Assembly (NCBI RefSeq): GCF_012911975.1
Contig: NZ_SMDQ01000007.1
Coordinates: 62,001 to 126,000, forward strand
Direction: 5' to 3'
DNA from: Nodosilinea sp. P-1105
Lineage (GTDB): Bacteria > Cyanobacteriota > Cyanobacteriia > Phormidesmidales > Phormidesmidaceae
Length of the DNA: 64,000 nt
The notes under the pieces are model-generated. The model was given only the letters and a program-made list of their open reading frames with translations, was not told the origin of the DNA and ran no database searches. Below are positions 1,884 to 11,395 of this stretch, piece after piece (the stretch's first letter is position 1; each line of letters opens with the position of its first letter). The position numbers were made by a program, and so were the translations under genes.

Positions 1884-3005
1884 CTAGACTTTTCCAGAAA
1901 GTGTTTGATCTATTTTGGCCTTTGTGGCCAGTAATTGCTCGATGGCGGTAACCAGGTCGGCTTGACCCCAATTTTGATACAGGCTGGCGGCGATCGCACA
2001 GGCCCCTGCCCCTACCCCCTCTTTGACAAAGCCCGCTTCGTAAGCTTGCAGGGCCGGGTAGTCAGAGGCTTGAAAAGATAGCTGAGTAGCCAATAAACTG
2101 GCCCCCACCAGTCGGGCTAGCCCCACCGTGTCCCCCGTAGGGTCTTCGGCAACCCAGCGGGTGGTACCCACCACCACATTGGCCGGGTTCCAGGGGTAGG
2201 GTTCCATTCTGGCCATGGCGGTGATCAGGGCGTAAACCGCCAACATTTGGGTGCCCCCGGCCAGCATCACCGGCTTAAACCGACTGGCGGCCATGGCCAT
2301 GGCCGCCACCAGCGGTTGCATCGGGTCACCCACGGCGGCCACCACCTCTAGGGGATGGGATCCGGGCTGGCTCAGCGATCGCAGTCCCTGGGCCACCAAC
2401 TGTTGTTTTTGGTCATGGTTACAGGTTGGATGGCTACTGTTAACTCGGCCGGTGGCCGCCACCCCTAGCCCCGTCAATAGGCCCAGGGCCGTGGTCGTGC
2501 CCCCGACCACACATTCTGCCAGCAGCAGGTAACCGCAGGGGTCGCTTGCCAACCGCTCCCCCCAGGCCAATCCCTGTTGCCACAGGTGCTGTACCGTCTC
2601 CCAGGGCAGCGCCGCCCCGGTGCTGAGACACTGGGCCGGTTGGCCGCCTAAATCCACACAGGGCACCGTGGGGGATTGGGGCAGCCCAGCGTTAAAAATT
2701 TTCAGGGGTATCTGCTGTGCGGCGATGACCGCCCGGGAAATCAAGGCTGGAGACGCCCCCGCCTGCAAGGGGGGTAGGGGAAAGCGAGGATGGAGCTGCA
2801 AGCCATTGACCAGGCACTCGGCGTCTGCGAGGGCGGTCACCTGGCGATCGCTGGGGGTGGCTCCCGCCGCCGAAATTCCGGCGATCAATCCGGTTGCTGT
2901 AAATCCCAAGGTCAAGACCAGGATCGGACACTGCCCTTCGACTTGGTGCAGCCATGACTGCCCCAGGTGGGGTTGGGTGTAGACCTGAATCAAGGGATGC
3001 ACCAT
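1884..3005 (-). CDS. cobT: CobT-like nicotinate-nucleotide phosphoribosyltransferase (UPF0284 family)
   Basis: This 373-residue protein matches the cyanobacterial/archaeal TIGR00303 (UPF0284) group, which is related to the CobT enzymes that activate the lower-ligand base for cobamide synthesis. Visible hallmarks are the glycine-rich segment ECVVGGTTTALGLLTGLG near residue 165 and a second glycine-rich stretch, MLAGGTQMLAVYALI, near residue 245. Cyanobacteria mostly make pseudocobalamin, so the base used may not be dimethylbenzimidazole; that is inference. Only 6 nt separate it from the DUF2232 gene, which indicates translational coupling in one operon. Confidence 0.85.
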   Translation of the reverse strand: MVHPLIQVYTQPHLGQSWLHQVEGQCPILVLTLGFTATGLIAGISAAGATPSDRQVTALADAECLVNGLQLHPRFPLPPLQAGASPALISRAVIAAQQIPLKIFNAGLPQSPTVPCVDLGGQPAQCLSTGAALPWETVQHLWQQGLAWGERLASDPCGYLLLAECVVGGTTTALGLLTGLGVAATGRVNSSHPTCNHDQKQQLVAQGLRSLSQPGSHPLEVVAAVGDPMQPLVAAMAMAASRFKPVMLAGGTQMLAVYALITAMARMEPYPWNPANVVVGTTRWVAEDPTGDTVGLARLVGASLLATQLSFQASDYPALQAYEAGFVKEGVGAGACAIAASLYQNWGQADLVTAIEQLLATKAKIDQTLSGKV

Positions 3006-3011
3006 AGGTGA

Positions 3012-3821
3012 TTAGTCGTCTAGCAACCCCTGCACCCACTCTGGGGGGGGCGGAATGCTAGCCCCTAACCGCTCCAGTAACAGCCAGGCCGCCATGTGAA
3101 CCGCAAACAAGTACACCACATTGCTTAGCACCACCATAATCAGTGCCAGAATTTGAATCGCCTCGACATTGGCCTGGCCCAGCACCCCCATGTCCAGCAG
3201 CCCCAGGTTAACCAGTCGCTCTAGTCCCCAGTTCAGCATTTGGGTGACCTGGGCGGTTAGGTACACCCAAAGGTCTTCCCCCACCAAGACAGACATCAAC
3301 CACAGACGAAAGAAAAATCCCAAGGCCCCCAGCAAGGCTCCTGCGGCAATCGACACATACCAACTGGCTCCCCGCACCCAGGTAAATCCCAACTGCACCC
3401 CCAACACCGCATAGGGCATCAAAAACAAGAGGCTGCGGGGTGGCCCCATCAAAACTGACAGCAACAAACCAGATACCAGGGCAGACATCCAGGCGGCCCT
3501 GGCCCCCCAGCGTAGGTAAATTAACGCCATCGGCAGGGGGAATAAAATCCGGAGCACCGGACCGGGCGGAAAATAGGTATTGACCAACCAGATCAAAGCC
3601 GCTGTACTGGCCAAAAATGCCGTTTCAACCATGACCAAGGGCCCCGCCTTACGGCGATGATCCCCCTTGCCCAGATCAGGCTTAGCCCCCTCTGCGGTGG
3701 CGGAGCGATAGTCCAGGTAGGTGTCTAAATCATCGAAGCCGGACTCACCGGCATTACCAGGGGATGATGCCATGGAATCAGACTGAGAAGCACGATCAGG
3801 GTCGGGAACAAATGAGCTCAT
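3012..3821 (-). CDS. DUF2232 multi-pass membrane protein
   Basis: 269 residues. A hydrophilic N-terminal tail of about 60 residues is followed by six or seven hydrophobic helices (for example LVMVETAFLASTAALIWLV and LPMALIYLRWGARAAWMSAL). The pattern fits the DUF2232/YybS-like family of predicted membrane proteins, whose function is not established. It sits 6 nt after the Crp/Fnr gene and 6 nt before the cobT-like gene. A role in vitamin or precursor uptake would fit the cobT neighbour, but nothing in the sequence proves it. Confidence 0.8.
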   Translation of the reverse strand: MSSFVPDPDRASQSDSMASSPGNAGESGFDDLDTYLDYRSATAEGAKPDLGKGDHRRKAGPLVMVETAFLASTAALIWLVNTYFPPGPVLRILFPLPMALIYLRWGARAAWMSALVSGLLLSVLMGPPRSLLFLMPYAVLGVQLGFTWVRGASWYVSIAAGALLGALGFFFRLWLMSVLVGEDLWVYLTAQVTQMLNWGLERLVNLGLLDMGVLGQANVEAIQILALIMVVLSNVVYLFAVHMAAWLLLERLGASIPPPPEWVQGLLDD

Positions 3822-3827
3822 GACTAC

Positions 3828-4532
3828 TTACACTAGCAGCCGCTCAAGGGCATTGATGTCAGGAATGCTCAGAAGATCCCGATCCCGCACAATCAGCCCT
3901 TTCTTTTCCAGCTTATTCAGTACCCGGGTGACCGTCTCCCGAGCTAGACCACTGAGACTACTCAGCTCCCGATGGGGTAAGTTGGGAATTTCTAAGCCCG
4001 TGGCCCCTGGTTTACCCTGGCCATCGGCCAAAAACAACAGGATATCGGTGACCCGGGCAGTGCTATCTGATTCCCGTAACCGTAGCCGCCGGTTGACTTG
4101 GCGCAGCCGCCGAGCCATCAGCTGTGACAACCGAATACCTGCCAGAGGCTGAGTCTGTAACAAATTCACAAAATCACTGGCGGGGATGCTGCCAATCACC
4201 GTCGGCACCAGGGTAATCACATCGGTAGACCGGGGCACTTCATCGAGGGGGGCCATTTCGCCAAACAGTTCCCCCCGCCCCAGAATATTCAGGGTGACTT
4301 CCTTGCCGTCTAGGTTGTAGGTGCGAATCTTAACCCAGCCATCCAGAATGAAATAAACTGAGCTACCCCAGTCGTTTTCCAGCAAAATCACTTGATTGGC
4401 CGGGTGGCTGCGAGAGACCACCTGGCCCGTAGCACTGGCAACGGCCTCAGTTGGCAGTCCCTGAAACAGCGGGGCCTCTCTCACCAACTGAATATCAGCT
4501 TGAAGATCCCGATGGCCATAGCGCGCATCCAT
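3828..4532 (-). CDS. Crp/Fnr family transcriptional regulator
   Basis: 234 residues with the standard two-domain layout. A cyclic-nucleotide-binding-type beta roll spans about residues 15-140 and contains the G-E...P-R-S-T phosphate-binding pattern (GELFGEMAPLDEVPRSTD). A long dimer helix follows, then a winged HTH near residues 175-225 (HRELSSLSGLARETVTRVL). No Fnr-type cysteine cluster is visible. It leads the operon continuing with DUF2232, cobT-like and TPR genes, so it may regulate that operon. Its start is ATG at 4532, with the promoter in the long gap upstream. It is not NtcA, judging by the HTH residues. Confidence 0.9.
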   Translation of the reverse strand: MDARYGHRDLQADIQLVREAPLFQGLPTEAVASATGQVVSRSHPANQVILLENDWGSSVYFILDGWVKIRTYNLDGKEVTLNILGRGELFGEMAPLDEVPRSTDVITLVPTVIGSIPASDFVNLLQTQPLAGIRLSQLMARRLRQVNRRLRLRESDSTARVTDILLFLADGQGKPGATGLEIPNLPHRELSSLSGLARETVTRVLNKLEKKGLIVRDRDLLSIPDINALERLLV

Positions 4533-5017
4533 TGACTACCCCGATAGTAAAAAACAATTGGCAGGAAAATTGTTTAAGCTAAGTCTTGTAGGTTAAATCA
4601 ATCATAGATTAGATACACCTGCGGCAAGGCAATTCCGGGCACTGGCTGATAGGGAATTCAATTAGACCGCTTTCGATGCTTCTGTGCCGCTTTGGTTAGG
4701 CCGCCTGCCTCGCTTCTAGTGGTTTCTGCGTCGCTGGTGGGTTGTGAGTAAGGGTTGCCAAAAGTGGGGTTGTCAAGGGTTCCAGTCAAGTTGATGACTG
4801 AGGCTCCGACCAGGTCTTAACAGACCGGATCTTAATATAACTGTCTTGCTGTGGGCCAAGGGTCTCTGTAGGGGCCGTCTAAAAAATGACAAATCTTTGC
4901 TAAGTCATGGGAATTAGGTCGGCTAGTCGGGCAGGTTAGACCATGGGGTTAAGGATGATTTTTGGCGACACCTGACATACACTTTGGCCATTGTTGGGGA
5001 GAGGGATAGGAAAAGAC
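4533..5017. other. Divergent intergenic region between crp-type gene and giant ORF
   Basis: About 485 nt without a credible gene. It must hold the divergent promoters of the Crp/Fnr operon and of the giant Hsp70-like gene. The stretch 4530-4620 is AT-rich. I see no strong palindrome and assign no specific promoter boxes. Confidence 0.5.
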
Positions 5018-8000
5018 GTGACTCTGCAACGGGATGAACTAGAGGCCTTGGTGGCCGAGATTGACGGGCTCCTAGGGGATGCCGCGCCGAGGTTGCCGTG
5101 GGTCATGGCTAGTAATGCCACCCAGCAGCGACAATTGTTAGCTAAGGCGCGAGCCTATTTAGCAGACCTAGACAACCGTATCCAAGCTGATACAACGGTG
5201 AATGATGCGGCTGTGGCATCGGACACTCTGCCTGTTGACCCCACCATGGCGACGGCCAGTCAGATCCTGCAAGCGCTACTGCAAGAAATGCAGTATCTGC
5301 GGGGGCAAACCATGCAGATTTTAGATCCCCTGCGGCAAGAGGTCGCCACCTTAAACCAACAGCGAGAGCTGTTGCTACAAGAGGTGCAGCAGTTGCAGCG
5401 ACAGCGTCTACAGTTGGAAGCGAGTGCCCTGCCCAATGGGGCAGATCGAAGCTGGGATGAAACCCTACAACAGTTGACTCGCCACCTGGAAGCCCACTTG
5501 ACCAACCAGGTGGAGCAATCGGTGCAACGGCTAGAGGCTTCGGTGGCCAATACTTACTTGTTGGGGGATTCGTCCCAGCCACCAGCGGGTTCCGACCAGG
5601 CCGATGGTGAACCGGACGATCGCCTGTCCCCGACCCAGCGGCTGGCCTACTTGAATCAACTTCAGACCCAGACGGACCACCTGGTGCTGAACCTGGACCA
5701 GTCGATCCGAACGGTGTTTGAAGCCCTAGAACAAAGCCTTTATACCTACAAAGATTCCCTCAACCAGGGGCTGAATAAAATGCATACCCTGGGTCAGCAG
5801 GGGGAAATGATGTTCAGTGCCCTGATTAATCATCTGGCCCGACAAATGAACCAAGAGGCTCGGGCCTATCTGGATGCCAGTGAACCGCCCAGCGGCCAGC
5901 GGCCCGGGCTACCCACAGGTGATGGGACAGCCAGTGAGGTAGAACCAGGTTCGGCGATCGCGGAGACCCAGACAGACACCGATTTGACCTTCGATGACCT
6001 CGATCTCGACGAGGGCTTTAACGACTTAGACTTTGACTTTGAGGATGACGAACTCACTCTGGCCCAGCTAGACGATGACGTTTTATCGGCGGCGGTGGCC
6101 CCAGATGCAGGACCAGGGAACGAGGCAGACAGCTTACCAACGCTGGATCAACTGGATGTAGCCAATCCTGATCCAAGTCCAACGGTGTCCTTGCCCCAAA
6201 TGCCCTCAGCTGATGCCGAGGTGATTCAGCTTAACGCCGATAACGACTCGGCGTTGGATGACCTATACCAGAGTTTATTTGGCACCGGAACCTCGACTGC
6301 ACCAGATGAGGGCGATGAGGGCAGATCCTCCGACTCGGCAGCATCGGCAGCATTGACTGGGGACGATGCCTGGCCCGAGGCGTTGGCCATGGATGTAGGG
6401 GCCGAAGAGCCCGATGATGAACCCGAATTGGCGTCCACCGCCCCAGCAGTCGAGGCGGACGCCCTGGCTCAGCTGATAGAACCGTCGGAGGAGGAGCAAG
6501 GAAATGCTGCGATCGCCCCTGAAGAGGCCACCCTAGCCGATGTTCTGGGGACCGAAACAGCGGCCCAACTGTCGGTGGACCCAGATGCGGCGGCGATCGC
6601 GCCCCCAGACGACGATGTGATTACCTCCCTAGCAGAGTTGCTGCCGGACCAGCAGGGAGCGGCCCTCAACCCAGAGGCCAGATCATCCTTTGACCCGGAG
6701 GGCTCCTTCCTAGATGACGCTAGGGATAGCCAGTTTATGGCCGCTCCGGCCGAAGAGGACTTGCTGACCCAGGGCAGCACGGCTGACGCCAGTCAGTATG
6801 GACTGTCAGTGGATGGAGATATTGTCGATCAGCTGCAAGCAGATCTCGACGACCTGGAAGCCCGGGAAGTGGCCGCACCGTCAGTAGAGGTTGAGACATC
6901 GACTGACCAGGACCCGGTACCGCCAGCAGAACCAGCGGCAGATGAGGCCTTAGAACCTGGCAACGATCACTGGGTTAACGATCTGGAGGCAGCCCCGTCT
7001 GAATCCGGGGTGCCTGAATCCGGGGCGGCCGATCGCCCCCCATGGGACGTGACAGCCCCTGAAACCATGGATATCTCTGATCAGCTAGGGCCAGACGAAC
7101 TAGAGCCCAGGGATCTAGAGCCTGGTGATTTAGCAGGTTTAGGCCTAGATGATCAGGACAACCTATCCCTCAGCACAGACCTGTTTAGCGATGAGTTTGC
7201 CCTGGCAGACGATGGCCGCGATGATGATATCTTTGCCGCCGATCTTGATGCTTCAGAAGGCTCGGTAGCAGAAGACTCGGTATCGGAAGACTCGGTAGCA
7301 GACGAGGCCAGTCAGACGGCTGACTGGTGGGTCGATCAGTCCGACTTGGAGTCTACCCCTGAACCACTAGAGCAAGCGGGGCTAGAAGACGCGATCGCTA
7401 CCCCAACCCCAGATCTATGGACCCAGGCCTCCGCAGCCGTGACGGAGCGTCAAGCTGACGTTGGCCAGACTAGGGTCGAGCCACAGCCCCCCGACTTGGA
7501 TCAAGCCCTGGACGACATGGGGCCAGAGGCCGAAACCCTGCAACCTGAGGCTTGGACAGCTGATTGGACGGCTGCCGAGGGTAGCACCGACCCAGCCGCT
7601 GACTTAACGGCCACCCCTGGGGAGTTTTCGGCTGAAGGAATCGATCTGTTTGCCGAAGCCACCTCTGCCCCCCCCCCCCCCCTAGGGCAAGACAAGGCTA
7701 CGGAGGGGATCAACCTATTTACCGACGAAGCCTACGTCGAACCCCAGCCGACCGATTTAGAGGATGGCCCCAGTGGTATCGACCTATTCGCCAATCAGAA
7801 CTTTGTGGAACCCCAACCCCCTGACCTGGACACCGCCCAGGAGGGGATTGACCTGTTCCCTGAGACCAGTACGCCTCAGGAACCTGGCCCTGATCAGTTA
7901 TCGAGCCACCTGGAGGAATTTGGATCCGACAGCCCAACTTTTGGCCGCCCAGTTGCAGATGTCCCGGCCCCAGAGGATGCCCCGGAAGGGATTGATCTAT

Positions 8001-11000
8001 TTCCAAGGGAGTCTGCCCAGAGCCCTGCCGATCAGCAACCCAGCCCCGATGGCTTAGCGAACCTGCTGGCCGAACTAAACCTGAGCCTAGAGGACGATAC
8101 CCCAGCGGTTGGCGAGTCAGGACTGACCCTGAGTGACCTAGGGGACATGGCCTCAGATGTACAGCCCGAACCCCAGCGTCCTCGCCCAGGCCCCATTCCG
8201 CCTTGGACCCCCGAGGGAGACATTTCTCGTCCAGGGCCAGCGGCACCCCCTACCGAGGCCAATACCGAGACCGACCCCAGTGCAGAGCTAACGGTGTCTG
8301 ATCCGTCCCTGACCCTAGAGAATCTGTTGGGCGATCTCGCCCTAGATCCTCTGCCACTGGAGCCGGACCAACCTCCAGAGGTAACGGCCGATAACCTGTT
8401 TGGTGCAGAGGCCATGCCCACCGACCCCACCGAGGCTACCGATACCTCGGTGACGGCCGAGAATGTGTTTGATCCAGCGGCTATCCCGGCTGACGGTGAG
8501 CCCGAGCCTGAACTCGAGGTGATCCAGTCAGCCCCGCCGGATTCAGCCCTGCAGCCGGATGTGCCCGATTCCTCCGATACCCTGGACGACCTAATCTCAG
8601 CCGGTTGGGGGGTGGAGAATCCCCCCCCTGCCTGGTCAGAGCCTGATCTGACCCTAGAGACGGTTGATTTAGAGGCAAGCCCCGAACTAAGGTCGCCAGT
8701 CCCTGCCCCTGGGGAGGCGTTGGAGCTTTCCCTAACGATGGATGATCTGGATCTGAGCTTGGAGGGGACAACATTTCCTGGGGCTGACGAGGCTAGTGGC
8801 GGTGACCAACCTCAGATAGAAGCTCCATCCCCAGACATTTCAGACCTAGACATTCCAGACCCAGAAACCCCGGACCCAGAAACCCCGGACCCAAAAACCC
8901 AAGAGTGGCTGCGGGAAATTAGCTTAGATAATATTCTGGATACCGCTGGCGAGAATTTGCCCCGTCGGGCAGAGGCTGAGTTTCCCACTGGCCCAGCAAC
9001 ACCAGCAGCGTTTTCCCTAGATCAGTTTGATTTTTCCCTGGGGGATGAAGCTGAAGACCTCGCAGGGGCGATCGCCCCTGCTGACGGCCCCTCTGATGTC
9101 CCGGCTGAAGACCTTGCTGATGCCCCTGCTGAGCTAGACCTCGATTCATTGGCCCTGGCCGATCAGGTTGGGGCTGACCTGGGTTGGGATCAGGGGGAAG
9201 AAATCGCTGAGGCTGCAACAGCGCCTGAAGCAGCCCCTGAAATACCTGAAGCCACCGAGGACTTATCTGAGGTTGAATCCTCCCCCGATATTGAACTACC
9301 TACCGAGCTGGAACTGCCCGCCGAGATTGAAGTGTCCGACTCAGCGCCACCCCTAGGGGAATTTACCGCTGGAGCTGAGGGCTTACCGATGCCGACCCTG
9401 GAGTCTGACTTTTTGACCAGCCCCATGGCGGATTTGGACTTAGCCGCGATGGGGCCTGAACAGGTACCTGCTGCTGGCTTGCTGGGGACCGAACCACCAG
9501 CCGTTCCTGAGTCACCGGATGCCCTATGGTTTTTAGGGCTGGATGTGGGCACTAGCGGTCTGTCAGCCGTGCTACTAGATAAGTGCAGCGGTCAGGCCTA
9601 TCCCATCTACTGGATGGATAATGCGATTTCTGGGGCCACGGCTGATAAGTTTTTCCGGTTGCCCACCCTAGTTTCTGTGGCGCCCTCTGCCGCAGAGGGG
9701 AGTTACCAGGTACAGTCGGTCGGGGCCTCGGCTCTGACCGTGGACTGGGATGACGCCACTGCATCTGACGACGCGGAAGACAGCTCGGTTCTGCTCAAAA
9801 CCTTGAAGCCATTTTTAAAGTTTGGCATTCCTGTAACCGATGCAGAAACAGGGGATTCGCAGCCCCAAGTGCAATGGTCTGACCAGACTCAGCTCCCTTT
9901 GCAGGTATTTTTAGAGGGTCTGCAAGCGTTATTGGCGACCCTATCGCCGTCAGATTCTTCCCCATTCACCGTTGGGGCTGTGGACCTAGGGACAGATAGG
10001 CTGCCCCAAGCTCTACAGCAACTGCAAGGGGTAGTTGTGAGCTATCCAGCCAACTGGCCTGATACCTACACCTTTAACCTGCGGGAAGTGGTGATTGGGG
10101 CCGGGCTGATCGAGAACCCCGAAGATATTTACTTCCTTGAAGATGCGATCGCGACAGTATTGTCTGGCTTTCCCGATCCCAATGAACCCATGCCTGAGGC
10201 CAATAGCCAGCCCCTGCAGCAGCAAACCGTTTATGCCTGTCAGTGGACTGGGGGTACCGTCGTGCTATCCGCCGGAGCCACGATGACCGAAGTGGGCCTG
10301 GTTAACTTGCCTCGCGATCGCACCCAACTGTCCTACGATGACTTTATGCTTCATTCCATGGCCTATGCCGGGGATGCGATTGATTTGGACATGGTCTGCC
10401 ATCTGCTGCACCCCATGGAACGGCGGCAACGACGGACCCCCAATGACTACGATCGAGCCCAAAATGGCTGGGGCTGGCAGGCGGCAATCCCTGAGTTAGA
10501 CACAGCTCGGTGGGACGATTTGGGACTAGATCAGCTTGACTTGCCTCGGCCTGCCGAGCCAGACTTAGCTCGACGCCAACAGCTACAACAGCGGTTGGAA
10601 GCTTCGCTACTGGGGCAAAGCACGTTAGAAGCGGTGCGCCACCTGAAGATTATCTTGCAGCACCAGTCCCAGTTCGAGCTAGAACTGGCCGATCAACACT
10701 GGGTAGTGCGCAGCAAGGAGCTCGTGGATCGGATTATCCTGCCCTATATCCAGCGGATAAATGGCCACTTCAATCAATTGCTGAGCAAAGCAGGGCTGTC
10801 TACCCATAGCATTAAGCAGGTGATTTGTACCGGCGGCAGTGCTTCGCTGCCTAAGATTACCCACTGGCTGCGGCAGAAGTTTCCTGAGGCGATTATCATC
10901 CAGGATACTTACCACAGCGATCGCCCCCCGAGCTGTAGTCGGGTCGCCTATGGCCTGGCCAACCTGGTGCGCTATCCCCAGGTACTCGATCTAAATCGCC

Positions 11001-11395
11001 ATCAGTACAGCGACATGTTTCTGCTGCTAGAACTGTTGCGCACCTCCCCCGAGCAGCCTATGCCCCTCAGCGGTTTACTGCACCTGCTAAATGAGCGGGG
11101 GATCAACACTGAAGCCTGTGAACTCCACATTGCGGCCCTGCTAGAAGGTCGTCTCCCCCCAGGCCTGCTATCAGCGACAACCCAGCCAGTGTTATTGCCT
11201 TCGGCGGCCAGTGACCTCTCCCAATCCCTGGCGGAAACCCCCTTGTTTAAGCGACCCAATAACCAGATTTATGTGCCCAATCTGGGTCAACAGCAGCGCC
11301 TACAGACCTACATGGAGCAATTGCTGAGTGATAAGCACCAAAACCTGGTAGATCCCTTACTCGCCAAGCTGATCGCCATCAGCATTCAAGCATGA
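5018..11395 (+). CDS. Giant protein: coiled-coil head, acidic disordered middle, C-terminal Hsp70/actin-like ATPase domain
   Basis: The likely start is GTG at 5018 (AGGA a few bases upstream), giving 2125 residues; a TTG at 4991 is also in frame. Residues about 88-145 form a coiled coil rich in Q, L and E, followed by amphipathic helices to about 290. Residues 290-1500 are low-complexity, rich in D, E, P and S, with short repeats including five G-I-[DN]-L-F motifs. From about 1503 an actin/Hsp70-type ATPase fold begins: phosphate-1 loop GLDVGTSG, connecting segment YPANWPDTYTFNLREV, phosphate-2 region CQWTGGT near 1742 (Q where Hsp70 has the catalytic-loop Asp), and adenosine motif ICTGGSASLPKI near 1938. 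It is monocistronic. A scaffold or chaperone-like role is inferred only from the fold. A C15 tract (7668-7682) lies inside the gene. Confidence 0.85.
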   Translation: MTLQRDELEALVAEIDGLLGDAAPRLPWVMASNATQQRQLLAKARAYLADLDNRIQADTTVNDAAVASDTLPVDPTMATASQILQALLQEMQYLRGQTMQILDPLRQEVATLNQQRELLLQEVQQLQRQRLQLEASALPNGADRSWDETLQQLTRHLEAHLTNQVEQSVQRLEASVANTYLLGDSSQPPAGSDQADGEPDDRLSPTQRLAYLNQLQTQTDHLVLNLDQSIRTVFEALEQSLYTYKDSLNQGLNKMHTLGQQGEMMFSALINHLARQMNQEARAYLDASEPPSGQRPGLPTGDGTASEVEPGSAIAETQTDTDLTFDDLDLDEGFNDLDFDFEDDELTLAQLDDDVLSAAVAPDAGPGNEADSLPTLDQLDVANPDPSPTVSLPQMPSADAEVIQLNADNDSALDDLYQSLFGTGTSTAPDEGDEGRSSDSAASAALTGDDAWPEALAMDVGAEEPDDEPELASTAPAVEADALAQLIEPSEEEQGNAAIAPEEATLADVLGTETAAQLSVDPDAAAIAPPDDDVITSLAELLPDQQGAALNPEARSSFDPEGSFLDDARDSQFMAAPAEEDLLTQGSTADASQYGLSVDGDIVDQLQADLDDLEAREVAAPSVEVETSTDQDPVPPAEPAADEALEPGNDHWVNDLEAAPSESGVPESGAADRPPWDVTAPETMDISDQLGPDELEPRDLEPGDLAGLGLDDQDNLSLSTDLFSDEFALADDGRDDDIFAADLDASEGSVAEDSVSEDSVADEASQTADWWVDQSDLESTPEPLEQAGLEDAIATPTPDLWTQASAAVTERQADVGQTRVEPQPPDLDQALDDMGPEAETLQPEAWTADWTAAEGSTDPAADLTATPGEFSAEGIDLFAEATSAPPPPLGQDKATEGINLFTDEAYVEPQPTDLEDGPSGIDLFANQNFVEPQPPDLDTAQEGIDLFPETSTPQEPGPDQLSSHLEEFGSDSPTFGRPVADVPAPEDAPEGIDLFPRESAQSPADQQPSPDGLANLLAELNLSLEDDTPAVGESGLTLSDLGDMASDVQPEPQRPRPGPIPPWTPEGDISRPGPAAPPTEANTETDPSAELTVSDPSLTLENLLGDLALDPLPLEPDQPPEVTADNLFGAEAMPTDPTEATDTSVTAENVFDPAAIPADGEPEPELEVIQSAPPDSALQPDVPDSSDTLDDLISAGWGVENPPPAWSEPDLTLETVDLEASPELRSPVPAPGEALELSLTMDDLDLSLEGTTFPGADEASGGDQPQIEAPSPDISDLDIPDPETPDPETPDPKTQEWLREISLDNILDTAGENLPRRAEAEFPTGPATPAAFSLDQFDFSLGDEAEDLAGAIAPADGPSDVPAEDLADAPAELDLDSLALADQVGADLGWDQGEEIAEAATAPEAAPEIPEATEDLSEVESSPDIELPTELELPAEIEVSDSAPPLGEFTAGAEGLPMPTLESDFLTSPMADLDLAAMGPEQVPAAGLLGTEPPAVPESPDALWFLGLDVGTSGLSAVLLDKCSGQAYPIYWMDNAISGATADKFFRLPTLVSVAPSAAEGSYQVQSVGASALTVDWDDATASDDAEDSSVLLKTLKPFLKFGIPVTDAETGDSQPQVQWSDQTQLPLQVFLEGLQALLATLSPSDSSPFTVGAVDLGTDRLPQALQQLQGVVVSYPANWPDTYTFNLREVVIGAGLIENPEDIYFLEDAIATVLSGFPDPNEPMPEANSQPLQQQTVYACQWTGGTVVLSAGATMTEVGLVNLPRDRTQLSYDDFMLHSMAYAGDAIDLDMVCHLLHPMERRQRRTPNDYDRAQNGWGWQAAIPELDTARWDDLGLDQLDLPRPAEPDLARRQQLQQRLEASLLGQSTLEAVRHLKIILQHQSQFELELADQHWVVRSKELVDRIILPYIQRINGHFNQLLSKAGLSTHSIKQVICTGGSASLPKITHWLRQKFPEAIIIQDTYHSDRPPSCSRVAYGLANLVRYPQVLDLNRHQYSDMFLLLELLRTSPEQPMPLSGLLHLLNERGINTEACELHIAALLEGRLPPGLLSATTQPVLLPSAASDLSQSLAETPLFKRPNNQIYVPNLGQQQRLQTYMEQLLSDKHQNLVDPLLAKLIAISIQA
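7668..7682 (+). repeat. C15 homopolymer tract inside the giant gene
   Basis: Fifteen consecutive cytosines encode a Pro run near residue 885. A one-base change in length would shift frame about 620 codons before the ATPase domain. Confidence 0.9.
8858..8902 (+). repeat. 15-bp tandem repeat, three units, in the disordered region
   Basis: Two identical copies of GACCCAGAAACCCCG (8858-8872, 8873-8887) and a diverged third (8888-8902) encode D-P-E-T-P repeats. Unit length is a multiple of three, so copy-number change would keep frame. Confidence 0.9.

Follow-up and report, generated by a model that had tools for sequence, protein, structure and literature searches.

Within a 64,000-nucleotide stretch of the cyanobacterium Nodosilinea sp. 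P-1105 (contig NZ_SMDQ01000007.1, positions 62,001 to 126,000; hereafter the window), one gene encodes a 2125-residue protein whose N-terminal head is, by sequence comparison, a paralogue of the coiled-coil domain of SepJ, a protein through which the cells of filamentous cyanobacteria stay joined. The head (residues 1-290) is followed by an acidic tether, an Hsp70-like nucleotide-binding domain and a conserved C-terminal domain. An earlier reading of this DNA (the original prediction) missed the SepJ-type head, the clue that says most about function. We propose, as a plausible reading that falls somewhat short of probable, that the protein is a cytoplasmic, septum-associated, long-reach scaffold that would use the coiled coil common to both proteins to co-assemble with SepJ. 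As such, it may be a missing inner-side partner of cell-to-cell junctions. The searched literature contained no description of the protein, including for SepJ combined with Hsp70, in line with the original prediction, which knew of no described system of this kind. This huge cyanobacterial protein is apparently undescribed.

The gene is a single open frame that runs from a GTG codon at 5018 to a stop at 11395 (5018..11395, + strand), and its V-T-x-Q N terminus is common to relatives. When we compared it with a close relative from a Leptolyngbyaceae metagenome-assembled genome (MAG; L039), the ratio of nonsynonymous to synonymous substitution rates (dN/dS) was 0.15 in the head, 0.38 in the tether, 0.07 in the ATPase domain and 0.08 in the C-terminal part. 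These ratios, below 1 in all four parts, show that the gene is genuine over its entire length. All parts are under purifying selection, and the constraint on the tether is weaker but present. No transmembrane-like segment was predicted in the protein, and no signal peptide was evident on inspection of the N-terminal sequence. A phage or defence origin was rejected, as neither PHROGs nor PADLOC gave a match.

The head has two parts. An N-terminal helical subdomain (residues 1-60; 5018..5197, +), with the pattern LxALIAEID...RxxLxxxRxYL, is conserved in our head alignment (A3) and in compact relatives. The SepJ-type coiled-coil domain follows (residues ~74-288; 5237..5881, +) and carries the motif LDxxxxxVFEALxxxxxxYxxSLxQGLxxMHxLGQQGE. 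Profile comparison with hhalign matched the head to SepJ-like coiled coils with an E value of 1e-26 over 189 columns. A generic coiled-coil artefact was rejected as the source of this match, since real sequences scored 63-127 bits and 700 heptad-preserving shuffles scored at most 4.5 bits. In a tree of head and SepJ-type domains, the two formed sister clades with a support of 100 and no mixing. Pfam matches of the head were scattered and weak, and its AlphaFold model was all-helical and weak, with a predicted local distance difference test score (pLDDT) of 48.7.

Genome searches with the head alignment found, besides the window-type protein and apart from rare weak matches, one other main carrier per genome. 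This carrier is 564-855 residues long where the contig is complete, and in the two proteins tested by Pfam (L112 and L042) its permease part is EamA. At 15 loci, 8-10 hydrophobic segments are present, together with a variable linker, mostly rich in Pro, Ser and Thr. The published architecture of the 751-residue SepJ consists of a coiled coil (28-207), a linker (208-411) and a permease (412-751) (PMC6463045). Because their architecture matches it, we call these permease proteins SepJ. Separately, in two genomes of one family group (G185 and G289; f15), frames of 418-437 residues have a coiled coil of the SepJ type and gave no match to the ATPase; these may be an additional carrier of the module.

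Residues 1502-1990 (9521..10987, +) form the nucleotide-binding domain. They matched the NCBIfam HscA model at 2.3e-7, with a score far below the curated family cut-off, and Pfam HSP70 at 17.0-19.8 bits against a cut-off of 20.6, rising to 21.1 bits in the genome search. A profile of the ATPase domain built from 36 family members (A2), from which all motif counts below are taken, aligned with cyanobacterial DnaK nucleotide-binding domains at E=1.4e-6 over 221 colinear columns. The HscA and DnaK matches uphold the C-terminal Hsp70/actin-like domain of the original prediction; the frame, the coiled-coil head and the very long acidic disordered tether that it described are likewise confirmed. In the phosphate-1 motif, WFLGLDVGTSGLSAVLLDK (9527..9583, +), the Asp is invariant (36/36). 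The segment FLEDAIATVLSGF (10133..10171, +) is the hhalign counterpart of DnaK NEPTAAALAYG and retains its Glu in 29 of the 36 members, and the first Gly of the adenosine motif, QVICTGGSASLPKI (10817..10858, +), is present in all of them. AlphaFold gave no confident fold for this domain (pLDDT 29) from an alignment of the window protein, L039 and L040 only.

The catalytic center requires a correction. The original prediction took CQWTGGT (10238..10258, +) for phosphate-2, with Gln in place of Asp. We rejected this assignment, since the DnaK alignment places the motif in the following strand, VVLSAGATMTE; the true phosphate-2 is GGTVVLSAGATMTEVGLV (10250..10303, +). Here the residue aligned with DnaK Asp194 is a Ser. 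Across the family this column contains Asn in 19 members, Ser in 4, Asp in 4 and other residues in 9, such that Asp is replaced in 32 of 36. The motifs, read with established knowledge of Hsp70, predict a domain that binds nucleotide but hydrolyses it poorly: with the phosphate-2 Asp replaced, turnover should be slow or absent. The earlier suggestion that hydrolysis may be weak is thus still plausible, although the Gln is not the cause and is not a catalytic substitution. In a divergent group of three loci (L046, L054 and L080), the phosphate-1 motif reads DWSDRG rather than DxGTTG; these have a more degenerate nucleotide site and urease-like genes downstream.

The acidic disordered tether (residues 291-1501; 5888..9520, +) connects these domains. 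Over residues ~291-1500 (about 1210 residues), it contains 24.5% Asp plus Glu and 1.7% Lys plus Arg, and it is rich in Asp, Ala, Pro and Glu, not in Pro, Ser and Thr. Long relatives have a similar composition, with tethers of 254-1698 residues that are 16-34% Asp/Glu and 0.5-6.4% Lys/Arg.

We sampled 292 genomes of the phylum, counting the ATPase domain at E values up to 1e-6, and found it in 71. Three weaker hits beyond this cut-off resemble another Hsp70 paralogue, judging from their length. At the 41 loci that were read for gene arrangement, head and ATPase share one frame in 23, including the compact L049 and L050, and in 15 others the head is encoded by the gene immediately upstream, in the same orientation, with a gap of -128 to +139 bases. 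The head profile found no match at the remaining three loci: at L077 a short upstream frame starts like the head (IQSLIAEVDLSL), at L047 the N-terminal part is head-like by eye, and L052 is a 399-residue form. Mapping fused and split states onto the ATPase tree, with L077 labelled split, required at least six changes, two of which are forced by well supported branches. By Rosetta-stone logic, this fusion or adjacency implies that head, tether and ATPase are one functional unit. Homologues retain both head and tether, either within the fused frame or in an adjacent gene, and the absence of both from close homologues, which would have told against the original prediction, did not occur; only compact relatives without SepJ lack the tether.

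The protein also co-occurs with SepJ. Both were found in 60 of the 292 genomes, the ATPase alone in 11, SepJ alone in five and neither in 216, so that 60 genomes with both stand against 16 with one alone. The Fisher value for this distribution (p 1e-44) ignores relatedness and is not readable as a probability. In G197 and G229, two of the five genomes with SepJ alone, a second head-like frame is present, so the search may have missed their ATPase. Phormidium sp. FACHB-1136 (L040) has a second head-bearing frame of SepJ-like size, as does the Leptolyngbyaceae MAG (679 or 633 residues). The long tether was seen only alongside SepJ. All 11 ATPase-bearing genomes without SepJ contain short forms, and in the four of these that were read (L047, L049, L050 and L052) the tether is absent; in L049, the head ends only some 20-25 residues ahead of the ATPase start. 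The presence of SepJ suggests that the hosts are filamentous.

From these observations we infer a cytoplasmic location, co-assembly with SepJ, anchoring at the septum and a nucleotide switch that operates without cycling. SepJ is a septal, multimer-forming protein and contains a domain of this two-coil type (PMC5623728, PMC6463045). The head of the window protein would oligomerise with itself and/or with SepJ, and this would anchor the protein to the septum on its cytoplasmic side. Around this anchor, the tether could give the nucleotide-binding domain a large volume to explore. That domain would act as a clamp that binds ATP and hydrolyses it slowly or not at all, and a conformational switch set by the nucleotide state might hold or release a client or sense energy charge. 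The conserved C-terminal domain is the likely client site. That the head is joined to an ATP-binding fold without an evident export signal is an independent hint for the cytoplasm, and the lack of a signal peptide has also led to doubt about the compartment of the SepJ coiled coil (PMC12096826). A bolder version, which we regard as rather unlikely in its entirety, would make the protein the cytoplasmic arm of the SepJ complex. Here a tethered, nucleotide-sensing pseudo-Hsp70, its head co-assembling with the SepJ coiled coil, would make cell-cell joining and the working of the junctions responsive to cytoplasmic energy state or client binding. In this view SepJ would descend from a fusion of the head module with an EamA permease, and at least part of the SepJ coiled coil would be cytoplasmic.

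Several points weigh against a septal scaffold that assembles with SepJ. The main one is that the SepJ coiled coil has been argued to be periplasmic, since it binds peptidoglycan (PMC5623728) and AlphaFold 3 models of SepJ tetramers thread it through the membrane (PMC12096826); in that case a cytoplasmic head could not meet it. Affinity purification of SepJ gave no sign of specific partners (PMC5623728), a result that speaks against a tight complex of fixed stoichiometry. Septal location and SepJ binding are inferred, and the permease proteins are probably SepJ by architecture and homology, not by accession match. The co-occurrence is confounded by phylogeny, with the compact forms that lack SepJ coming from only two family groups. 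Since these relatives exist without SepJ, the head must have a SepJ-independent role there.

The alternative that survives best, a serious contender that we nonetheless consider doubtful, is a homo-oligomeric scaffold that works independently of SepJ. In this case the head would form only homotypic multimers, the shared domain would go back to an ancient event in which a single module was recruited for two unrelated tasks, and the tethered nucleotide-binding domains would make a multivalent hub, such as a condensate or client-clustering platform. The compact forms of the 11 genomes without SepJ, four of them read and without a long tether, are consistent with such a scaffold, as are the separate, unmixed clades of head and SepJ domains and the lack of partners in the SepJ purification. 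However, it leaves unexplained both the 60-to-16 co-occurrence and the finding of the long tether only in genomes with SepJ.

A filament-forming actin homologue of the MreB, ParM or PilM kind, with the tether linking polymer to anchor, is quite improbable. The ATPase profile matched MreB only in part (hhalign E=4e-5, 89 columns), and 8 of the 36 members have weak PilM Pfam matches. A PilM-like role would connect the protein to type IV pili and fit the divergent Crp gene described below, as SyCRP1 controls pili in Synechocystis (PMC2633013). Yet the comparison with cyanobacterial PilM was not significant (E=0.07, probability 0.8%), leading us to reject a PilM-type ATPase; DnaK matches better, and the residue for hydrolysis is lost.

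It is more improbable still that the protein is a chaperone-type Hsp70 with an unusual targeting head that performs ATP-driven client cycles. The nucleotide-binding domains of HscA and DnaK are its closest profile matches, and the Glu and adenosine motifs are conserved. However, neither Pfam nor NCBIfam matched an Hsp70 substrate-binding domain beyond the nucleotide-binding domain, and the phosphate-2 Asp is lost in most of the family. Standing where the substrate-binding domain would be, the last 135 residues (1991-2125; 10988..11392, +) are a separate conserved block of unknown fold with no Pfam match. The presence of this different domain agrees with the original prediction of a scaffold or tether rather than a chaperone.

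The gene is divergent from a Crp/Fnr operon, as originally described. This operon encodes a Crp-family regulator with cyclic nucleotide-binding and helix-turn-helix domains (3828..4532, -), a DUF2232 membrane protein (3012..3821, -) and a CobT-like phosphoribosyltransferase (DBI_PRT; 1884..3005, -); a 649-residue tetratricopeptide repeat protein (22-1971, -) ends it. The description of the gene as standing alone overlooks its equivalence to a two-gene operon elsewhere among the lineages and the conservation of the divergent Crp-DUF2232-CobT-like neighbourhood. A divergent Crp-family gene, usually followed by DUF2232 and the CobT-like gene, lies upstream at 31 of the 41 loci. For Synechocystis, one listed transcription unit comprises sycrp1 (sll1371) and sll1372-sll1373 (PMC2633013); it may correspond to the present locus. 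That the protein is a regulatory partner of Crp, such as an adaptor that sequesters or activates it, scarcely seems credible despite this recurrence across the phylum sample, as divergent synteny may reflect shared promoter control only, two loci (L055 and L069) retain DUF2232 with no Crp found beside the gene, and the shared intergenic region in the window (4533..5017) has no TGTGA-N6-TCACA site with fewer than three mismatches.

The gene that follows the ATPase gene in the same orientation is often sugar-transferase-like (cluster 6, named by eye; L041, L043, L044, L058, L063-L066, L075, L077 and L078). Cluster 6 is represented at 12 loci, at position +1 in 11, and a PgsA-like phosphatidyltransferase gene, also identified by eye, is at +1 to +3 in eight and overlaps the ATPase gene by 4 bases in L047. 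In addition, L059 (contig C114, 8416-12249, +) encodes a 1277-residue protein whose N-terminal domain is Hsp70/actin-like and whose C-terminal region is a P-loop NTPase. With a PADLOC candidate match (PDC-M26A, E=1.9e-26), it is possibly a defence protein in which an actin-like ATPase is joined to a P-loop motor.

The location and binding partners of the SepJ coiled coil are an open dispute in cyanobacterial multicellularity (PMC12096826). The window-type protein is the one other clear carrier of this module that we found, and it is present in most sampled genomes with SepJ. It is a candidate partner of SepJ, bears independently on the question of compartment and may provide septal structures with a nucleotide-dependent input. 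Its recurrent fusion or fission makes a clean Rosetta-stone case in which a degenerate Hsp70 would serve as a tethered module, not a chaperone.

Among known systems, the bacterial actins MreB, PilM and ParM presumably share the superfamily fold, and MreB matches partially; both MreB and PilM match more weakly than DnaK, and neither whole-domain similarity to MreB nor its phosphate-2 Asp is found. Hsp70 proteins (DnaK/HscA) are closer, with colinear phosphate-1, connecting Glu and adenosine motifs. Their phosphate-2 reads DLGGGT with the catalytic Asp, whereas the window protein has Ser there and, in place of a substrate-binding domain, a distinct conserved C-terminal domain, as well as the head and tether. 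Anabaena SepI (Alr3364), which we compared by description only, has a coiled coil and a linker-like domain but no permease and interacts with SepJ; no Hsp70-like domain is mentioned (PMC12096826). SepJ/FraG itself (Anabaena alr2338; coiled coil, linker and drug/metabolite transporter permease) has the two-coil domain homologous to the head and, likewise, a linker of variable length whose composition is conserved more than its sequence, and it co-occurs with the window-type protein in genomes. SepJ/FraG has the EamA permease and a Pro/Ser/Thr-rich linker. The window protein, in contrast, has neither an EamA match nor a transmembrane-like segment, its linker is acidic, and it adds the N-terminal helical subdomain and the C-terminal Hsp70-like domain.

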